From positions 1 to 35,441 of the forward strand of contig JALOOG010000033.1 of assembly GCA_025454525.1 (NCBI GenBank): 35,441 nt of DNA, given 5' to 3'. Of the stretch, positions 1,688-26,259 are shown piece by piece. How positions within the stretch are numbered: the stretch's first letter is position 1; each line of letters starts with the position of its first letter. This DNA is from Anaerolineae bacterium (GTDB lineage Bacteria > Chloroflexota > Anaerolineae > Aggregatilineales > Phototrophicaceae). The notes under the pieces were generated by a model. The model was not told where the DNA came from and searched no databases. It saw only the letters and a list, made by a program, of their open reading frames with translations. The translations under genes were made by a program, and so were the position numbers.

Positions 1688-1716
1688 TTGACAAGTCCCA
1701 AAAAACTGTTTATGCT
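1688..1716 (+). promoter_or_regulatory. Sigma70-type promoter of the sulfur operon leader
   Basis: TTGACA at 1688-1693 and TATGCT at 1711-1716 are separated by exactly 17 bases. The -35 box is a perfect consensus and the -10 matches 4 of 6. Transcription would begin near 1723, just before the left arm of the first leader RNA stem. This places the 5' end about 34 bases before the first leader peptide and about 390 bases before the rhodanese start codon. Confidence 0.75.
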
Positions 1717-1756
1717 TTTGCCATATCTAGGCATTTAACCTTTTGGAGCGTTTCCA

Positions 1757-1831
1757 GTGTCACCGTTTTCGACTCAAACCTGTTGTATGTGTTGTATGGG
1801 CATCCACTACCGCCGGGGTTTGCGTCGCTAG
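1757..1831 (+). CDS. Cys/Met-rich leader peptide (24 residues)
   Basis: A GTG-started frame preceded by GGAG (1745-1748) with an 8-base spacer encodes a 24-residue peptide. It begins MSPFSTQTCCMCCMG and ends in a basic tail with four arginines, then TAG at 1829. The core is an exact tandem repeat of TGTTGTATG (1781-1789 and 1790-1798), giving Cys-Cys-Met twice, with all four cysteines as TGT. It lies between the promoter at 1688 and a rho-independent terminator at 1863, upstream of sulfur-acquisition genes and tRNA-Cys. The expected role is to report Cys-tRNA (and possibly Met-tRNA) supply by ribosome stalling rather than to act as a stable protein. Poly-cysteine leader peptides acting as attenuators are known from mycobacteria. 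Confidence 0.78.
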   Translation: MSPFSTQTCCMCCMGIHYRRGLRR

Positions 1832-1862
1832 GGTTTGCCTAGTGTCAATCTGCTCACAATTT

Positions 1863-1887
1863 GCCCCGGCACCCGCCGGGGCTTTTT
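1863..1887 (+). terminator. Rho-independent terminator (attenuator stem)
   Basis: An all-GC stem pairs 1863-1870 with 1875-1882 around an ACCC tetraloop and is followed by TTTTT (1883-1887) and ATT. It lies 31 bases after the stop codon of the first leader peptide and 226 bases before the rhodanese start, so it would abort the transcript before the sulfur genes unless disrupted. Confidence 0.85.
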
Positions 1888-1909
1888 ATTTGACTTGTCA
1901 ACATCTGTC

Positions 1910-1949
1910 AATGCCTCGGTGGGGATCTCGCCGGGGCATTGTGGTTTTT
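1910..1949 (+). terminator. Second terminator-like hairpin in the sulfur leader
   Basis: AATGCCTCGG (1910-1919) pairs with CCGGGGCATT (1931-1940), ten pairs including one G-U, with an 11-base loop; the sequence then runs GTGG and TTTTT (1945-1949). Its right arm contains the same CGCCGGGG octamer (1929-1936) that occurs at 1811-1818 and 1874-1881. It may be a backup terminator or part of a second control step before the next tiny peptide. Confidence 0.6.
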
Positions 1950-1986
1950 AAGAGGGGTATCAATCTTTGCAAAGGAGATCCGACTT

Positions 1987-2010
1987 ATGGAAAGCTGTTG
2001 TTGTCGCTAA
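1987..2010 (+). CDS. Second poly-cysteine leader peptide, MESCCCR
   Basis: A seven-codon frame reads Met-Glu-Ser-Cys-Cys-Cys-Arg and stops at TAA (2008-2010). It is preceded by a strong ribosome site, AAAGGAGAT (1971-1979), with a 9-base gap to ATG. The three consecutive TGT codons directly before the end resemble cysteine attenuator peptides, in which stalling or slow termination alters expression of a downstream gene. It lies 103 bases upstream of the rhodanese start codon and after both hairpin terminators. It may therefore act on transcripts that escaped the first attenuator, or on translation. No clear terminator follows it, so the mode of action is unknown. Confidence 0.7.
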   Translation: MESCCCR

Positions 2011-2057
2011 AACTGAACTTGACTTGAACTGACGGGATTCATTTTGCCAATTTCACT

Positions 2058-2083
2058 TTAAACATACTGATTAAACATACTGA
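2058..2083 (+). repeat. Perfect 13-bp tandem repeat before the rhodanese gene
   Basis: TTAAACATACTGA occurs twice head to tail (2058-2070 and 2071-2083). It is followed by an inverted repeat GACC-N5-GGTC at 2082-2094. The pair ends 30 bases before the rhodanese start codon, so it could be an operator, an RNA-binding site or a chance duplication in the leader. Confidence 0.6.
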
Positions 2084-2113
2084 CCTATCTGGTCTATCAG
2101 GAGCATAATACAG

Positions 2114-3052
2114 ATGAACGTTCGTTGGTTAGCCCCCCTAGTCGTTTTATTGATCGGACTTCTTGCCATTACAGGCATTTTCGCACAAGAGACAGCCCCG
2201 ACTGAAGAAGTCCTTGTGACCGCCGATTGGTTAGAACAAAACCTTGAAAACCCCCAAGTCCGCGTGATCGAAGTGAGTGTGATCCCCGGCGTTTATGAGC
2301 GCGGTCATATCCCCGGTGCGCTCAATTTTGTCTGGCACACCGATTTTGTCGATACGCTACAACGTAACATCGTCTCGCAAGAACGTTTCCAAGAATTGAT
2401 CCGCGCTGCCGGAATCAACGATGATACCACCGTGATCTTGTATGGTGATAATAACAATTGGTTTGCCGCTTGGGGCGTGTGGATCTTCAATGTCTACGGG
2501 ATCACCGATGTGAAGTTATTAGACGGCGGCCGCGTGAAATGGGAAGCGGATGGCCGCCCACTTTCGACGAATGCCACAACCTATGAGCCGGGCAATGTCA
2601 CTTTGAGCGCGGCCAATGATGCGTTACGTGCTTTGTTGCCAGAAGTGTTAGCGGTCGTAGAAGGTGAAACCCCCGGCGTATTGGTCGATATTCGTGGCCC
2701 CGCTGAATACAACGGTGAGATCTTCGCTCCGGAAGGCGTACAGGAGTTATCGGTGCGGGCGGGTCATATCCCCGGCGCGGTCAATGTCCCTTGGGGACAG
2801 AATGTGCGTGAGGACGGTACGTTTAAATCGGTGGAAGAATTGCGCGAACTCTATGCTGGCTTAGGCGTTGACGGCACTACGCCGATCGTGACCTATTGCC
2901 GGATCGGTGAACGCGCCGCGTTAACTTGGTTTGTGTTACACAAGTTACTCGGTTATGACGTGGCGCTCTACGATGGCTCATGGACAGAATGGGGGAATAC
3001 AGTCGGTGTCCCGATTGTGAATCCCGCCGGCACGGTTTGGGGTGGACAATAA
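2114..3052 (+). CDS. Exported rhodanese-family sulfurtransferase (two domains)
   Basis: The 312-residue protein starts with a signal peptide (basic start, hydrophobic residues 6-22, likely cleavage after AQ near residue 25), so it should act outside the cytoplasmic membrane. Two rhodanese domains follow. The N-terminal one (about 35-150) has lost its catalytic cysteine (sequence VILYGDNNNW). The C-terminal one (about 175-305) keeps it as Cys262 in the loop YCRIGERA. This inactive-plus-active arrangement is typical of thiosulfate and 3-mercaptopyruvate sulfurtransferases, which move sulfane sulfur to an acceptor. AGGAG at 2099-2103 serves the ATG. Only 3 bases separate it from the transporter gene downstream, so the two are cotranscribed. 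The likely job is processing thiosulfate or related sulfur compounds before or during uptake; the substrate is not determined by sequence. Confidence 0.9.
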   Translation: MNVRWLAPLVVLLIGLLAITGIFAQETAPTEEVLVTADWLEQNLENPQVRVIEVSVIPGVYERGHIPGALNFVWHTDFVDTLQRNIVSQERFQELIRAAGINDDTTVILYGDNNNWFAAWGVWIFNVYGITDVKLLDGGRVKWEADGRPLSTNATTYEPGNVTLSAANDALRALLPEVLAVVEGETPGVLVDIRGPAEYNGEIFAPEGVQELSVRAGHIPGAVNVPWGQNVREDGTFKSVEELRELYAGLGVDGTTPIVTYCRIGERAALTWFVLHKLLGYDVALYDGSWTEWGNTVGVPIVNPAGTVWGGQ

Positions 3053-3055
3053 CCG

Positions 3056-4270
3056 ATGTCTGAAATCATGGTTGGGGGGGACTCGCATCGCGGGTCTACC
3101 CCCCGCTTCGGAACGCAAGCGATTTTACCCGCGTTAGGCTTTGCGGTCTTGATCGGCCTGATTTTAGGCGCGTATCGTCTCCATGCGGATCAAGGCGCAT
3201 CTGCATCACTTTCTCTATTGTTAGGGGGAGCGTTGGGGGTGGTCTTTCAGCGGGGGCGCTTTTGTTTTTTCTGCATTTTGCGCGATTTTATCGAACACCG
3301 GAATAGCACCGGCCTATTCGCCATTTTAGCGGCCTTGGCTGTGGGAGGTGTGGGTTACGCGATCGTATTTGGGGCGTTTTTGCCGAATACCACCACCGGA
3401 CGCTTAGCCCCTGATGCTCATATTGGGCCGGTGAGTTGGGTTTTATTTGCCGCGGGAATTGCGTTCGGGATCGGCATGGCCTTGTCCGGTGCGTGCATTA
3501 GCGGTCATCTCTATCGCTTGGGTGAAGGTTATAGCCGCGCTCCGTTTGCCTTGTTCGGATCGTTGATCGGTTTTGGCTTGGGTTTTATGACCTGGCAAAG
3601 TGTCTATGTCAGCACGATCAATCAAGCGCCGATCGTGTGGTTGCCGTCCACGCTGGGTTATGGGGGTGCGTTGGCCTTACATCTCGCGGTTTTGAGCGGG
3701 ATCGCGCTGTTTTTGTTGCGGGATCTTCCGGTGTCACCTGCGCGCCCAGAAGGGCGGATCACCTTCACCGGACTTTGGGATCGCTTGATTCATCAGCGAT
3801 GGAATCCGTTGGTGACCGGGGCGTTAGTCGGCGGGATCGGTACGATCGCTTATTTTCGTGTTGAGCCGTTGGGTGTCACCTCACAATTAGGCAGTGTGGC
3901 GCGTACCGTGTTAAATGACGCGGGTTTATTGGCCGATCGGTTAAATGGCCTAGACGGATTCGCCGGATGTGCGACGCAAGTCGTTAAAACGATCACCGAA
4001 AACGGATGGTTGATCGGCGGCATTGTGATCGGATCGTTGGCTGTGGTGTTATTGGCCAAGCGGTTTCGTTGGTCTGCTTTGACCTTCAAAGGTGCGATCA
4101 CGGCATGGATCGGCGGGATCTTGATGGGATGGGGCGCGATGTTAGCGTTAGGTTGCACCGTTGGCACATTACTTTCGGGAATTTCGGCTTTTGCCTTATC
4201 AGGGTGGGTATTTGCCGCCGCAGTATTGATCGGCGTTTGGTTGGGGATCAAGCTGAAACTTGTCCAATAA
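3056..4270 (+). CDS. TsuA/YeeE-type thiosulfate (sulfur compound) transporter
   Basis: This 404-residue, highly hydrophobic protein belongs to the YeeE/YedE family, whose characterised member TsuA imports thiosulfate through a relay of conserved cysteines. The family cysteines are visible at 70 and 73 (GRFCFFC), 147 (LSGACISGH), 305 (FAGCATQ) and 367 (LALGCTVGTLLSG). The two halves each carry a G-x-C signature, as expected for the duplicated fold. Length is slightly above the usual 330-380 because of a hydrophilic N-terminal extension with a run of glycines. It follows the rhodanese gene by 3 bases, and a tRNA-Cys gene begins 6 bases after its stop codon. The transporter and sulfurtransferase together point to uptake of thiosulfate as a sulfur source for cysteine synthesis. 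Confidence 0.9.
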   Translation: MSEIMVGGDSHRGSTPRFGTQAILPALGFAVLIGLILGAYRLHADQGASASLSLLLGGALGVVFQRGRFCFFCILRDFIEHRNSTGLFAILAALAVGGVGYAIVFGAFLPNTTTGRLAPDAHIGPVSWVLFAAGIAFGIGMALSGACISGHLYRLGEGYSRAPFALFGSLIGFGLGFMTWQSVYVSTINQAPIVWLPSTLGYGGALALHLAVLSGIALFLLRDLPVSPARPEGRITFTGLWDRLIHQRWNPLVTGALVGGIGTIAYFRVEPLGVTSQLGSVARTVLNDAGLLADRLNGLDGFAGCATQVVKTITENGWLIGGIVIGSLAVVLLAKRFRWSALTFKGAITAWIGGILMGWGAMLALGCTVGTLLSGISAFALSGWVFAAAVLIGVWLGIKLKLVQ

Positions 4271-4276
4271 ATTGTG

Positions 4277-4349
4277 GGTGGTGTGGCGAAATGGTCAACG
4301 CGGCGGTCTGCAAAATCGCTATTCGTGGGTTCGATTCCCACCGCCACCT
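4277..4349 (+). tRNA. tRNA-Cys (anticodon GCA), first copy
   Basis: A full cloverleaf is readable. The acceptor pairs GGTGGTG (4277-4283) with CGCCACC (4342-4348), including one G-U. The D-arm is GCG/CGC with a 10-base loop containing GG. The anticodon stem is GCGGT/ATCGC around loop CTGCAAA, giving anticodon GCA. There is a 5-base variable loop and a T-arm GTGGG/CCCAC with TTCGATT. The discriminator base is T (4349), the known identity element for cysteinyl-tRNA synthetase. CCA is not encoded. It begins 6 bases after the transporter stop codon, with no promoter of its own visible, and is followed by a run of six T. It therefore appears to be the last gene of the sulfur operon. Confidence 0.93.
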
Positions 4350-4452
4350 TTTTTATAGATCAATCACGGAAAAATCGTAACAAATGGCCCGTTTTTTTCG
4401 ATCATTTGTGCTATCATTCATCCAATACAACCAAGATGATGAGGGGCGATCT

Positions 4453-11083: not shown

Positions 11084-11106
11084 GGTGTGTATGGTTGAAT
11101 GATGAG

Positions 11107-11178
11107 AGGCGACGGTGGGACTCGAACCCACGGATCAGGCTTTTGCAGAGCCTTGCCTTACCACTTGGCTACGTCGCC
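11107..11178 (-). tRNA. tRNA-Cys (anticodon GCA), second copy
   Basis: Read on the minus strand, the acceptor pairs GGCGACG with CGTCGCC. The D-arm is GCC/GGC with a 9-base loop. The anticodon stem AGGCT/AGCCT flanks loop CTGCAAA, giving anticodon GCA. There is a 5-base variable loop, T-arm GTGGG/CCCAC with TTCGAGT, and discriminator T (complement at 11107). CCA is not encoded. It differs from the copy at 4277 in the acceptor, D and anticodon stems but shares the anticodon loop, T-stem and discriminator. It has its own good promoter and is followed by a zinc-ribbon gene. Confidence 0.93.
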
Positions 11179-25373: not shown

Positions 25374-25511
25374 ATGGGAAATGGTGGACTCTCACCCCAA
25401 GAGCGCGCTCAAATTCGAGATTTGTTGCGCTTTTTGGGCGCGGTGTTGATCTGTGTGTTGGCCGCCTCCATATTTGCGGCCGTTTTGGTCACGGTTTTCC
25501 AAAATGGTTAA
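25374..25511 (+). CDS. Small single-pass membrane protein, 45 residues
   Basis: The frame starts MGNGGLSPQERAQIRDLLR, then has one hydrophobic helix of about 23 residues (GAVLICVLAASIFAAVLVTV) and ends QNG. GAGG at 25364-25367 precedes ATG by a few bases, and a TATAAT at 25333-25338 offers a -10. The last 8 bases overlap the start of the receiver-like/DUF309 gene (ATGGTTAA), which implies translational coupling. No family is recognised. It may be a small membrane regulator or anchor for the downstream protein. Confidence 0.65.
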   Translation: MGNGGLSPQERAQIRDLLRFLGAVLICVLAASIFAAVLVTVFQNG

Positions 25512-26259
25512 CGTGATCGTGGTCACAGGGACTCCCGATTGGAGCGCATCGCTAATGGATCAAACCGCTTATCGGGTGTTGCATTACACTGAAAAGGCAG
25601 GGTATATCGTCCGTTTAAGTGATGATTTTCCTGCCTTGATCTTGGTGGATAGCCGTGATCCTGATTGGCGCTACTGGACAACCACCCCTAAAACCAGTCC
25701 AGCAACGCGGCGTATTCCGGTGATCGTCGTTCATGATTCATCTGATCCGGCTTTACGTCCACAGGCTTTAAGCGCAGGCGCGGACGAGGTGATCGATTTA
25801 AGTGAAATCATCAATCACCCGCTCACCGTCTATCGGCGTTATGCCCGTCAAGTCGATCCGGCGATCGTGGAGCAGCTTGATTGTGATTGTCAACTCCCGT
25901 TACCTGAATTAGCCCAACAGGGGATCGAACGCTTCAACGCGCAATCCTACTATGAACAACACGATCTGTTAGAGGCGTTGTGGGTCCAAACCGAAGGCCC
26001 GATCCGCGATTTATACCGGGCGATCTTGCAGATCGGGATCGCTTACTATCAAATTTTAGAAGGTAACGAACGCGGGGCCCTGAAAATGCTCTTACGTAGT
26101 ACCCAATGGTTGATGATCTTGCCGGATCACTGTCAAGGGGTGGATGTGGCACAACTCCGATCTGATGCCCTCCGAGTCCGTGCGGAATTAGAGCGGGTGA
26201 ATGATCTAGCGGAGTTCGATCGATCTTTGCTCCGTCCGATTGTCCTGATTCAACGCTAA
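25504..26259 (+). CDS. Receiver-like/DUF309 fusion protein
   Basis: The 251-residue protein has two parts. Residues 1-115 resemble a CheY-type receiver (LILVDSRDPDW, RIPVIVVHDSSDP, ALSAGADEVIDL), but the acidic pocket and the conserved lysine are missing, so it is probably a pseudo-receiver. Residues about 135-205 match DUF309 (GIERFNAQSYYEQHDLLEALW, LQIGIAYYQILEGNERGALKML), with His153 in the usual place. DUF309 is a helical domain of unknown function. The start at 25504 overlaps the small membrane protein; an earlier in-frame ATG at 25453 has no ribosome site and adds Trp/Pro-rich, unlikely sequence. Confidence 0.78.
   Translation: MVNVIVVTGTPDWSASLMDQTAYRVLHYTEKAGYIVRLSDDFPALILVDSRDPDWRYWTTTPKTSPATRRIPVIVVHDSSDPALRPQALSAGADEVIDLSEIINHPLTVYRRYARQVDPAIVEQLDCDCQLPLPELAQQGIERFNAQSYYEQHDLLEALWVQTEGPIRDLYRAILQIGIAYYQILEGNERGALKMLLRSTQWLMILPDHCQGVDVAQLRSDALRVRAELERVNDLAEFDRSLLRPIVLIQR

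Follow-up and report, generated by a model that had tools for sequence, protein, structure and literature searches.

How might a bacterium of the Chloroflexota adjust an operon for sulfur uptake to its supply of cysteine? The window, meaning the whole stretch of 35,441 nucleotides analyzed here, corresponds to contig C14 in a draft genome of 5.2 Mb. It carries a two-domain rhodanese gene (PF00581), the gene of a Sulf_transp protein (PF04143) and, directly after it, a tRNA-Cys gene; an AlkZ-like gene lies upstream of this operon and ileS downstream. Close homologues of the transporter were found in MAG records titled Anaerolineae, Chloroflexi and Aggregatilineales, among others. The locus had been described as a thiosulfate-import operon. 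The transporter passes the Sulf_transp gathering threshold (188.9 vs 27 bits) and resembles YeeE/TsuA structures in a structure comparison, but it remains below the NCBIfam TsuA cut-offs (69.7 vs 645 bits for NF041049 and 74.5 vs 400 bits for NF052577); the family assignment holds, and thiosulfate is a presumed substrate. The tRNA-Cys gene behind the operon (4276-4350) had previously gone unmentioned. It is one of two different tRNA-Cys (GCA) genes in the window, the other at 11106-11178, and a tRNA-Cys gene close to the 3' side of the transporter gene was also seen in two of 27 loci scanned (L032 and L034), several of the 27 ending soon past the transporter. The features discussed below are the following.

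1688-1716, + strand: promoter, TTGACA (1688-1693), 17 nt, TATGCT (1711-1716)
1757-1831, + strand: leader peptide P1, MSPFSTQTCCMCCMGIHYRRGLRR and stop, with a GTG start
1775-1783, + strand: segment 1 (the earlier S2), which could cover AT without a ribosome; the weakest element
1781-1798, + strand: regulatory codons Cys-Cys-Met-Cys-Cys-Met, an exact 9-bp repeat
1812-1819, + strand: segment 2, antiterminator strand AT, covarying with the T1 left arm
1863-1887, + strand: terminator T1, left arm 1863-1870 (segment 3), right arm 1875-1882 (segment 4), T-run
1909-1950, + strand: terminator T2, left arm 1909-1923 (segment 5), right arm 1927-1941 (segment 6), T-rich tail
1971-1977, + strand: Shine-Dalgarno sequence AAAGGAG of P2, read directly
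1987-2010, + strand: P2, MESCCCR and stop
2114-3052, + strand: two-domain rhodanese (sulfurtransferase), PF00581 in two stretches, best solved relative 1uar
3056-4270, + strand: YeeE/TsuA-like sulfur transporter, PF04143, structure match 6leo
4276-4350, + strand: tRNA-Cys (GCA), immediately 3' of the transporter gene

We consider it very probable, from the sequences and their comparison, that ribosome-mediated, cysteine-responsive transcription attenuation operates ahead of the rhodanese/transporter operon. With ample Cys-tRNA the ribosome would reach the stop codon, at or near AT, and block AT; T1 would then form and transcription would end, and polymerases slipping past T1 would meet T2. With scarce Cys-tRNA the ribosome would stall on the Cys codons and leave AT free. 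AT would take the left arm of T1 (T1L), the freed right arm (T1R) would take the left arm of T2 (T2L), and the right arm of T2 (T2R) would be left alone. Neither terminator would form, and rhodanese, transporter and tRNA-Cys would be transcribed. The pairings (AT:T1L)(T1R:T2L) would thus mean go and (T1L:T1R)(T2L:T2R) stop. Comparison across genomes supports P1, an AT that covaries with T1L and, in most leaders, a T2 whose left arm covaries with T1R.

Leader peptide, antiterminator and first terminator

The evidence is comparative throughout and the genomes are mostly drafts. Transporter searches gave some match in 47 of 121 genomes, many of them weak, and a follow-up set of 41 loci. From these searches and later model matches we obtained 22 distinct loci of the order (Aggregatilineales) with a readable rhodanese start, from which the distant rhodaneses of L092 (37% identity) and of L125 and L129 (46-47%) were excluded. 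The rhodaneses of the 22 loci are 62-100% identical and the transporter gene was seen in 20; in L101 and L109 the contig breaks off within the rhodanese gene. P1, a terminator and P2 are all present in 20 of the 22 loci. L033 has P2 on a contig that begins after T1, and L042 has the operon without a P1-terminator leader or P2. Upstream of position 3964 in L042, a TTGACA promoter was noted near the rhodanese gene and an MSCLRR ORF farther away. The leader alignment A1 was built without structure. It left out L033 and L042 for these features, L044-L071 (other groups by record title), loci without a rhodanese start (L013, L020-L022, L026, L043, L065), and duplicates (L093 lies within L039, and several of L001-L019 repeat L031-L042); L101 and L109, found later by model R1, are also outside it. 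The records of L031 and L035 are titled Bacteroidetes and Pleurocapsa minor, titles that are probably wrong since both loci match genomes of the window's family.

As a background estimate, a Cys-rich short ORF with a terminator occurred in seven of 730 tiled 540-nt stretches of contigs of this kind, three of the seven being the leaders described here, a tiling that splits most of the remaining leaders. Outside the order, a class-wide scan of 396 genomes with stricter filters gave one further real leader, in G452 (L161/L174), with P1, T1, T2, rhodanese and transporter and with no P2. In L059, whose record is titled Balneolales, a Cys-rich ORF (NICMCCCKK) and a terminator lie about 180 nt before a rhodanese/transporter pair, which may reflect convergence or transfer; no such Cys-rich ORF with terminator was seen before the rhodanese genes of L061 and L068.

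The promoter, the GTG-started peptide of 24 codons with its tandem 9-bp repeat, the GC-rich terminator at 1863-1887 and the 7-bp complementarity between AT and the left arm of T1 had all been noted in this sequence, and direct reading confirmed them. The promoter has 10 of 12 matches; of 18 homologous leaders, 16 have TTGACA unchanged and 17 keep the 17-nt spacing. P1 starts at GTG 1757-1759, with GGAG 8 nt upstream, and ends at TAG 1829-1831, and its repeat, TGTTGTATG, is present twice within 1781-1798. A Cys-rich P1 was found in all 18 complete leaders, with 16-34 codons and 3-7 Cys each, so that Cys makes up 87 of 467 codons (18.6%) in these peptides, whose translation is predicted. The Cys codons are 67 TGT and 20 TGC, so it is the residue that is kept and not the codon; TGT is favoured in the long ORFs of the window too (39 vs 16). 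Within the window's family, 12 of 14 leaders have 15-22 nt between AT and the Cys codon that most closely precedes it. The exceptions are L035, with 11 nt, and L040, where a lone Cys codon precedes AT by 1 nt and the main Cys cluster ends 16 nt before it. In the four f7 leaders the last Cys codon is only 5-12 nt before AT.

T1 is a hairpin (1863-1882) followed by a T-run (1883-1887), and GCCGGGG at 1812-1818 is the exact complement of CCCCGGC at 1864-1870. In the window sequence alone this match is unremarkable, as 19.7% of 300 shuffles were as good, and the case therefore rests on comparison across genomes. A match score of 16 is attained just ahead of T1, within the 40 nt that contain AT, by all 18 leaders; of 383 control stretches taken upstream of the peptides, 2 do so. 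When AT strands were swapped among leaders, own T1 arms scored a mean of 21.72 against 18.23 for swapped ones (0/20,000), the own arm ranking first in only 5 of 18 leaders because the GC-rich arms look alike. In A1, 95.1% of AT:T1L cells are paired against 89.4% in shuffled alignments (0/500), and 11 are doubly changed against 3.1 expected (0/500); two of the five covariation measures were no better than shuffles (135/500 and 476/500). The T1L:T1R stem is paired in 100% of cells, with 9 doubly changed against 2.0 (0/500). The shuffle tests leave kinship in place, and relatedness inflates their significance.

Under parsimony, as many as eight compensatory changes may have arisen separately at three of the AT:T1L pairs, the double changes falling in separated branches of the rhodanese + transporter tree, several nodes of which are weakly supported. 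On this tree C-G became U-A in the f7 clade and in L031, and G-C became A-U both in L037, L038 and L039 and in L034, L072 and L077. The left arm of T1 has a C-to-T change in L034 and L072; AT matches it with an A, and the right arm of T1 keeps its G as a wobble, which argues that the AT pairing is maintained independently of the terminator pairing. The AT match of L035 is short, includes a wobble and was misplaced by the alignment. The anticipated conservation of peptide and pairing was thus borne out: 18 of 18 homologous leaders have a P1 rich in Cys and a stretch that matches T1 as AT does, with compensatory changes across them, and covariation backs the mutual exclusivity of antiterminator and T1.

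The remaining parts of the four-segment switch fared less evenly. S2 had been proposed to mask AT in the absence of a stalled ribosome. In 15 of 18 leaders AT pairs with upstream RNA more than it does in shuffles on average, but the window falls below that average (0.71 vs 0.74, with a z of -0.32 for the S2:AT fold), and only in L072, among the 18 leaders, did less than 5% of shuffles reach the pairing observed. The stop codon lies 8-28 nt past the start of AT in 17 of 18 leaders and 4 nt before AT in L041. By a simple rule that takes the footprint of a ribosome at the stop codon as 14 nt upstream of the P site, AT would be entirely masked in 7 of the 18 leaders (the window is one of them), partly in nine, and not at all in two (L035 and L075).

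The second terminator

Beyond T1 there is a second and longer hairpin (1909-1941), followed by TGGTTTTTAA, which the original prediction did not contain. T2 is present in 13 of 18 leaders, 9-40 nt past T1, and also in L101, L092 and L174; the five leaders without it are the four of f7 and L035. In the window, 1913-1923 of T2 is able to pair with 1872-1882 of T1. We examined this pairing in A2, the 16 sequences with T2, including L101, L092 and L174. The covariation score of T1R:T2L was 0.316 against 0.198 in shuffled alignments (0/500), its cells were paired in 86.8% against 79.8% (0/500), and 13 were doubly changed against 6.1 (2/500), with two loop-side pairs unpaired in 11 and 6 sequences. 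The swap test gave 25.27 for own and 21.57 for swapped T1R:T2L partners (0/20,000). This pairing and its covariation suggest that one stalled ribosome could open both terminators, and the leader could thus consist of six alternating segments rather than the four of trp.

Alternatively, T2 would be a plain backup terminator outside the switch, a leaky T2 setting expression and T1R:T2L arising as a by-product of duplicated GC-rich hairpins. We regard this as possible, if somewhat doubtful. The arms of T1 and T2 do look alike, the two terminators may be duplicates of one another, and T1R matches T2L better than it matches T1L in 7 of 13 leaders, equally in one and worse in five. The pairing T2R:T1L also beats swapped pairs and shuffles (score 0.173 vs 0.120, 1/500 in A2), and five of 18 leaders do without T2. 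Against the backup reading, the covariation score of T1R:T2L (0.316) exceeds that of the own stem of T2 (0.225, against 0.158 in shuffles, 0/500), two structures that differ in pair number. Moreover, in the window, L031, L039 and L073, T1R matches T2L at loop-side bases that are unmatched in T1L, and an uncontrolled T2 would be expected to halt most induced transcripts.

Folding bears on both sides of this question. With a ribosome placed on the Cys codons and the RNA ending at T1, the mean probability was 0.25 for AT:T1L and 0.81 for T1; with the RNA ending in the left arm of T2 the values were 0.82 and 0.18. In the ensemble folds of this latter state read-through dominates in 11 of 13 leaders, the exceptions being the window and L040. 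At equilibrium the window fold cut at 1922 retains T1, with AT:T1L at 0.01. For 1808-1925 of the window the centroid consists of AT:T1L and T1R:T2L, small local hairpins aside, whereas the minimum-energy structure of the fold to 1925 keeps T1 and pairs AT with the left arm of T2. Once the right arm of T2 is present the equilibrium reverts in several leaders (means of 0.47 for T1 and 0.57 for T2). Before the right arm of T2 is made, T1R:T2L also attains at least 0.5 in 8 of 13 leaders when the ribosome sits at the stop codon, so the pairing is not exclusive to the stalled state, a point in favour of the backup reading. Because of this pairing at the stop codon and the reversal at equilibrium, the relay, if real, would act by order of synthesis; and since the fate of T1 is set before the left arm of T2 exists, it would explain escape from T2 only.

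The second cysteine peptide and the remaining alternatives

A second short ORF, P2 (ATG GAA AGC TGT TGT TGT CGC TAA, with AAAGGAG ahead), had likewise been overlooked and is present in 21 of the 22 homologous loci of the order. In the 19 leaders measured P2 starts 92-142 nt before the rhodanese gene, after a purine-rich Shine-Dalgarno-like stretch, and has its first Cys at codon 2-6. Its length is 4-37 codons, of which 22.8% are Cys, and it is weak in L036, with one early Cys. Elements with a P2-like Shine-Dalgarno sequence, start and Cys-Cys motif number 40 in 405,100 nt, or 0.006 per 60 nt, the real P2 included. A DNA-pattern search for such elements elsewhere in the order was unproductive; among the matches listed, those at G068:C38, G036:C85, G004:C122, G000:C14 and G003:C350 are known P2, and most were judged by eye to be CTG repeats off-frame.

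P2 lies past all terminators and is therefore unable to act on them, yet it is retained in 21 of 22 loci. It probably serves as one more cysteine checkpoint, downstream of the terminators. Our guess is that ribosomes stalling on P2 protect the growing mRNA against Rho or nucleases. The interval from P2 to the rhodanese gene was also examined for a C-rich stretch of the Rho type, which was rejected (C and G about equal, 199 and 190).

P2 might instead control translation, a ribosome stalled on it opening a fold that hides the rhodanese start site, as has reportedly been considered for mycobacterial polycysteine uORFs. This agrees with the folds of the window, L032, L072 and L078, where the rhodanese Shine-Dalgarno region has the P2 region as its main pairing partner and opens when P2 is masked. 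In the other 15 of 19 leaders, however, there was little pairing or change, a conserved fold tying P2 to the rhodanese start being absent or weak, and both the distance and the length of P2 vary; we therefore think translational control by P2 unlikely. It is very improbable that P1 and P2 are functional small proteins binding metal or persulfide: their high Cys content would suit such a role, but their lengths, start codons and most other residues vary, the conserved parts are the Cys codons and the AT bases, and the NCBIfam match to P1 is at chance level only. Sulfur genes of Firmicutes are under T-box or S-box control, and sensing by a Cys T-box or another known riboswitch can be practically dismissed here, as the Rfam scan of the window gave two tRNAs and no riboswitch or T-box match above the gathering score, and it is the Cys-codon geometry that is kept instead.

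Related leaders in the order and known attenuators

Model R1 matched 82 of 154 genomes of the order (E <= 0.01), real leaders being mixed with plain terminators; many weak matches were by eye ordinary gene-end terminators (for example L122, L131, L144, L149 and L156). In the window's own genome R1 matched strongly at this locus only and did not detect the sulfite-reductase leader to which cysH later led, so its counts are lower bounds. A scripted scan found peptide, terminator and AT in 27 of 48 loci, two of which (L142 and L149) we judged false. Cys-peptide leaders precede genes for sulfite reductase (NF010029, 751 bits), PAPS reductase with APS kinase, a sulfate ABC binding protein (L139), a NIR_SIR-domain protein (L114) and DUF4395 (L126), and in L103 a small gene followed by a YeiH-like one (Pfam match, below the NCBIfam cut-off). 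Leaders with only two Cys codons precede binding proteins of families 3 and 5 in L118 and L121. In G027, whose genome is one contig, cysH is preceded by a Cys-peptide with a terminator. Assignment of the L114 leader to a sirohaem-synthase gene was rejected, because it faces the opposite way, toward the NIR_SIR-domain gene. Cys-rich leaders with terminators were also noted before a carbonic anhydrase-like gene (L150) and an ATP-grasp gene (L136), and in L120 a P1-like ORF with scattered Cys, a T1 and a P2-like MKSCCCSRC ORF precede a 419-aa protein without Pfam match. In the window itself, a Cys ORF with terminator at 25380-25920 spans the start of another gene and was unconvincing.

Sulfite reductase was searched for at the protein level, with matches in 20 of 154 genomes, and the sample was picked by this search. 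Peptide and terminator were found in 18 of 19 readable leaders, and two such modules in nine of the 19, from families f1 and f8, four of them from one genus; in L187 peptide and hairpin were seen by eye and missed by the script. The antiterminator score is at least 15 in both modules of five of the nine (L178, L179, L181, L185 and L190) and weak in both modules of L175 and L176. L185 belongs to the window's genome, where an operon of sulfite reductase, PAPS reductase and a CysG N-terminal-type gene has a leader with two cysteine attenuators in series, their arms (GATAGTTCG/CGAACTATC and CTGAGGTT/AACCTCAG) unlike those of the rhodanese leader. Two modules were also present in 9 of 13 cysH leaders, a sample picked through R1 matches and thus biased; L159 was not counted, its second module being false (the same peptide with two terminators). 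For the 50 modules before sulfite-reductase and cysH genes, one of them judged false, own pairs scored 15.43 and swapped pairs 13.23 (0/20,000). We tentatively propose, as a picture that falls just short of probable, a cysteine-attenuator regulon for sulfur assimilation in this order, in which one stalled ribosome would unlock two terminators through a six-segment relay ladder, serial attenuators would sharpen the response by reading one amino acid twice, and P2 would gate expression again.

The trp operon of E. coli is controlled by a ribosome-mediated transcription attenuator. A peptide with regulatory codons, an antiterminator competing with a terminator, and alternating segments are common to it and to the leader in the window, and also to the actinobacterial attenuators of PMC1262725. 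Here, however, the amino acid is cysteine, AT is located within the end of the peptide's coding sequence or next to it, two terminators form a ladder and the host is a member of the Chloroflexota. The trp-like attenuator with alternating stems that had been proposed is upheld in its conserved P1 and its covarying AT and T1, but the design exceeds trp because the second terminator joins the ladder. Runs of Cys codons likewise precede sulfur genes in the mycobacterial cys operons; for these leaders PMC1262725 found no conserved hairpins fit to act as terminators and suggested Rho, whereas T1 and T2 are present here.

The uORFC-8-2 motif before cysS of Rhodobacterales (PMC8632094) also combines a predicted Cys-codon peptide with an intrinsic terminator. 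It has two conserved Cys codons, one terminator and a tRNA-synthetase gene, in alphaproteobacteria, and the sections consulted mention no ladder or tandem copies. The window leader falls outside its definition, standing before other genes and in other bacteria. A Cys-codon peptide with a terminator is thus, going by those sections, an already predicted kind of element, and the novelty lies in the layouts. The mgtCBR leader of Salmonella (PMC3641672) also holds two short ORFs and two attenuators, but these sense different signals (ATP and proline), a 'singular example' according to the abstract, whereas here both copies carry Cys codons. The rimP leader similarly has tandem terminators and a possible antiterminator, with no Cys leader peptide mentioned in the accessible part of PMC2965389. 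In the open-access PMC literature we found no description of cysteine attenuation in Chloroflexota, of serial cysteine attenuators or of a six-segment ladder.

These observations extend peptide-based attenuation of transcription to the Chloroflexota, and to a regulon that spans the uptake and assimilation of sulfur. Both layouts, the paired terminators that share one antiterminator and the serial attenuators that read one amino acid twice, would counter the leakiness of a single attenuator, and how bacteria make attenuation steep becomes a directly testable question.
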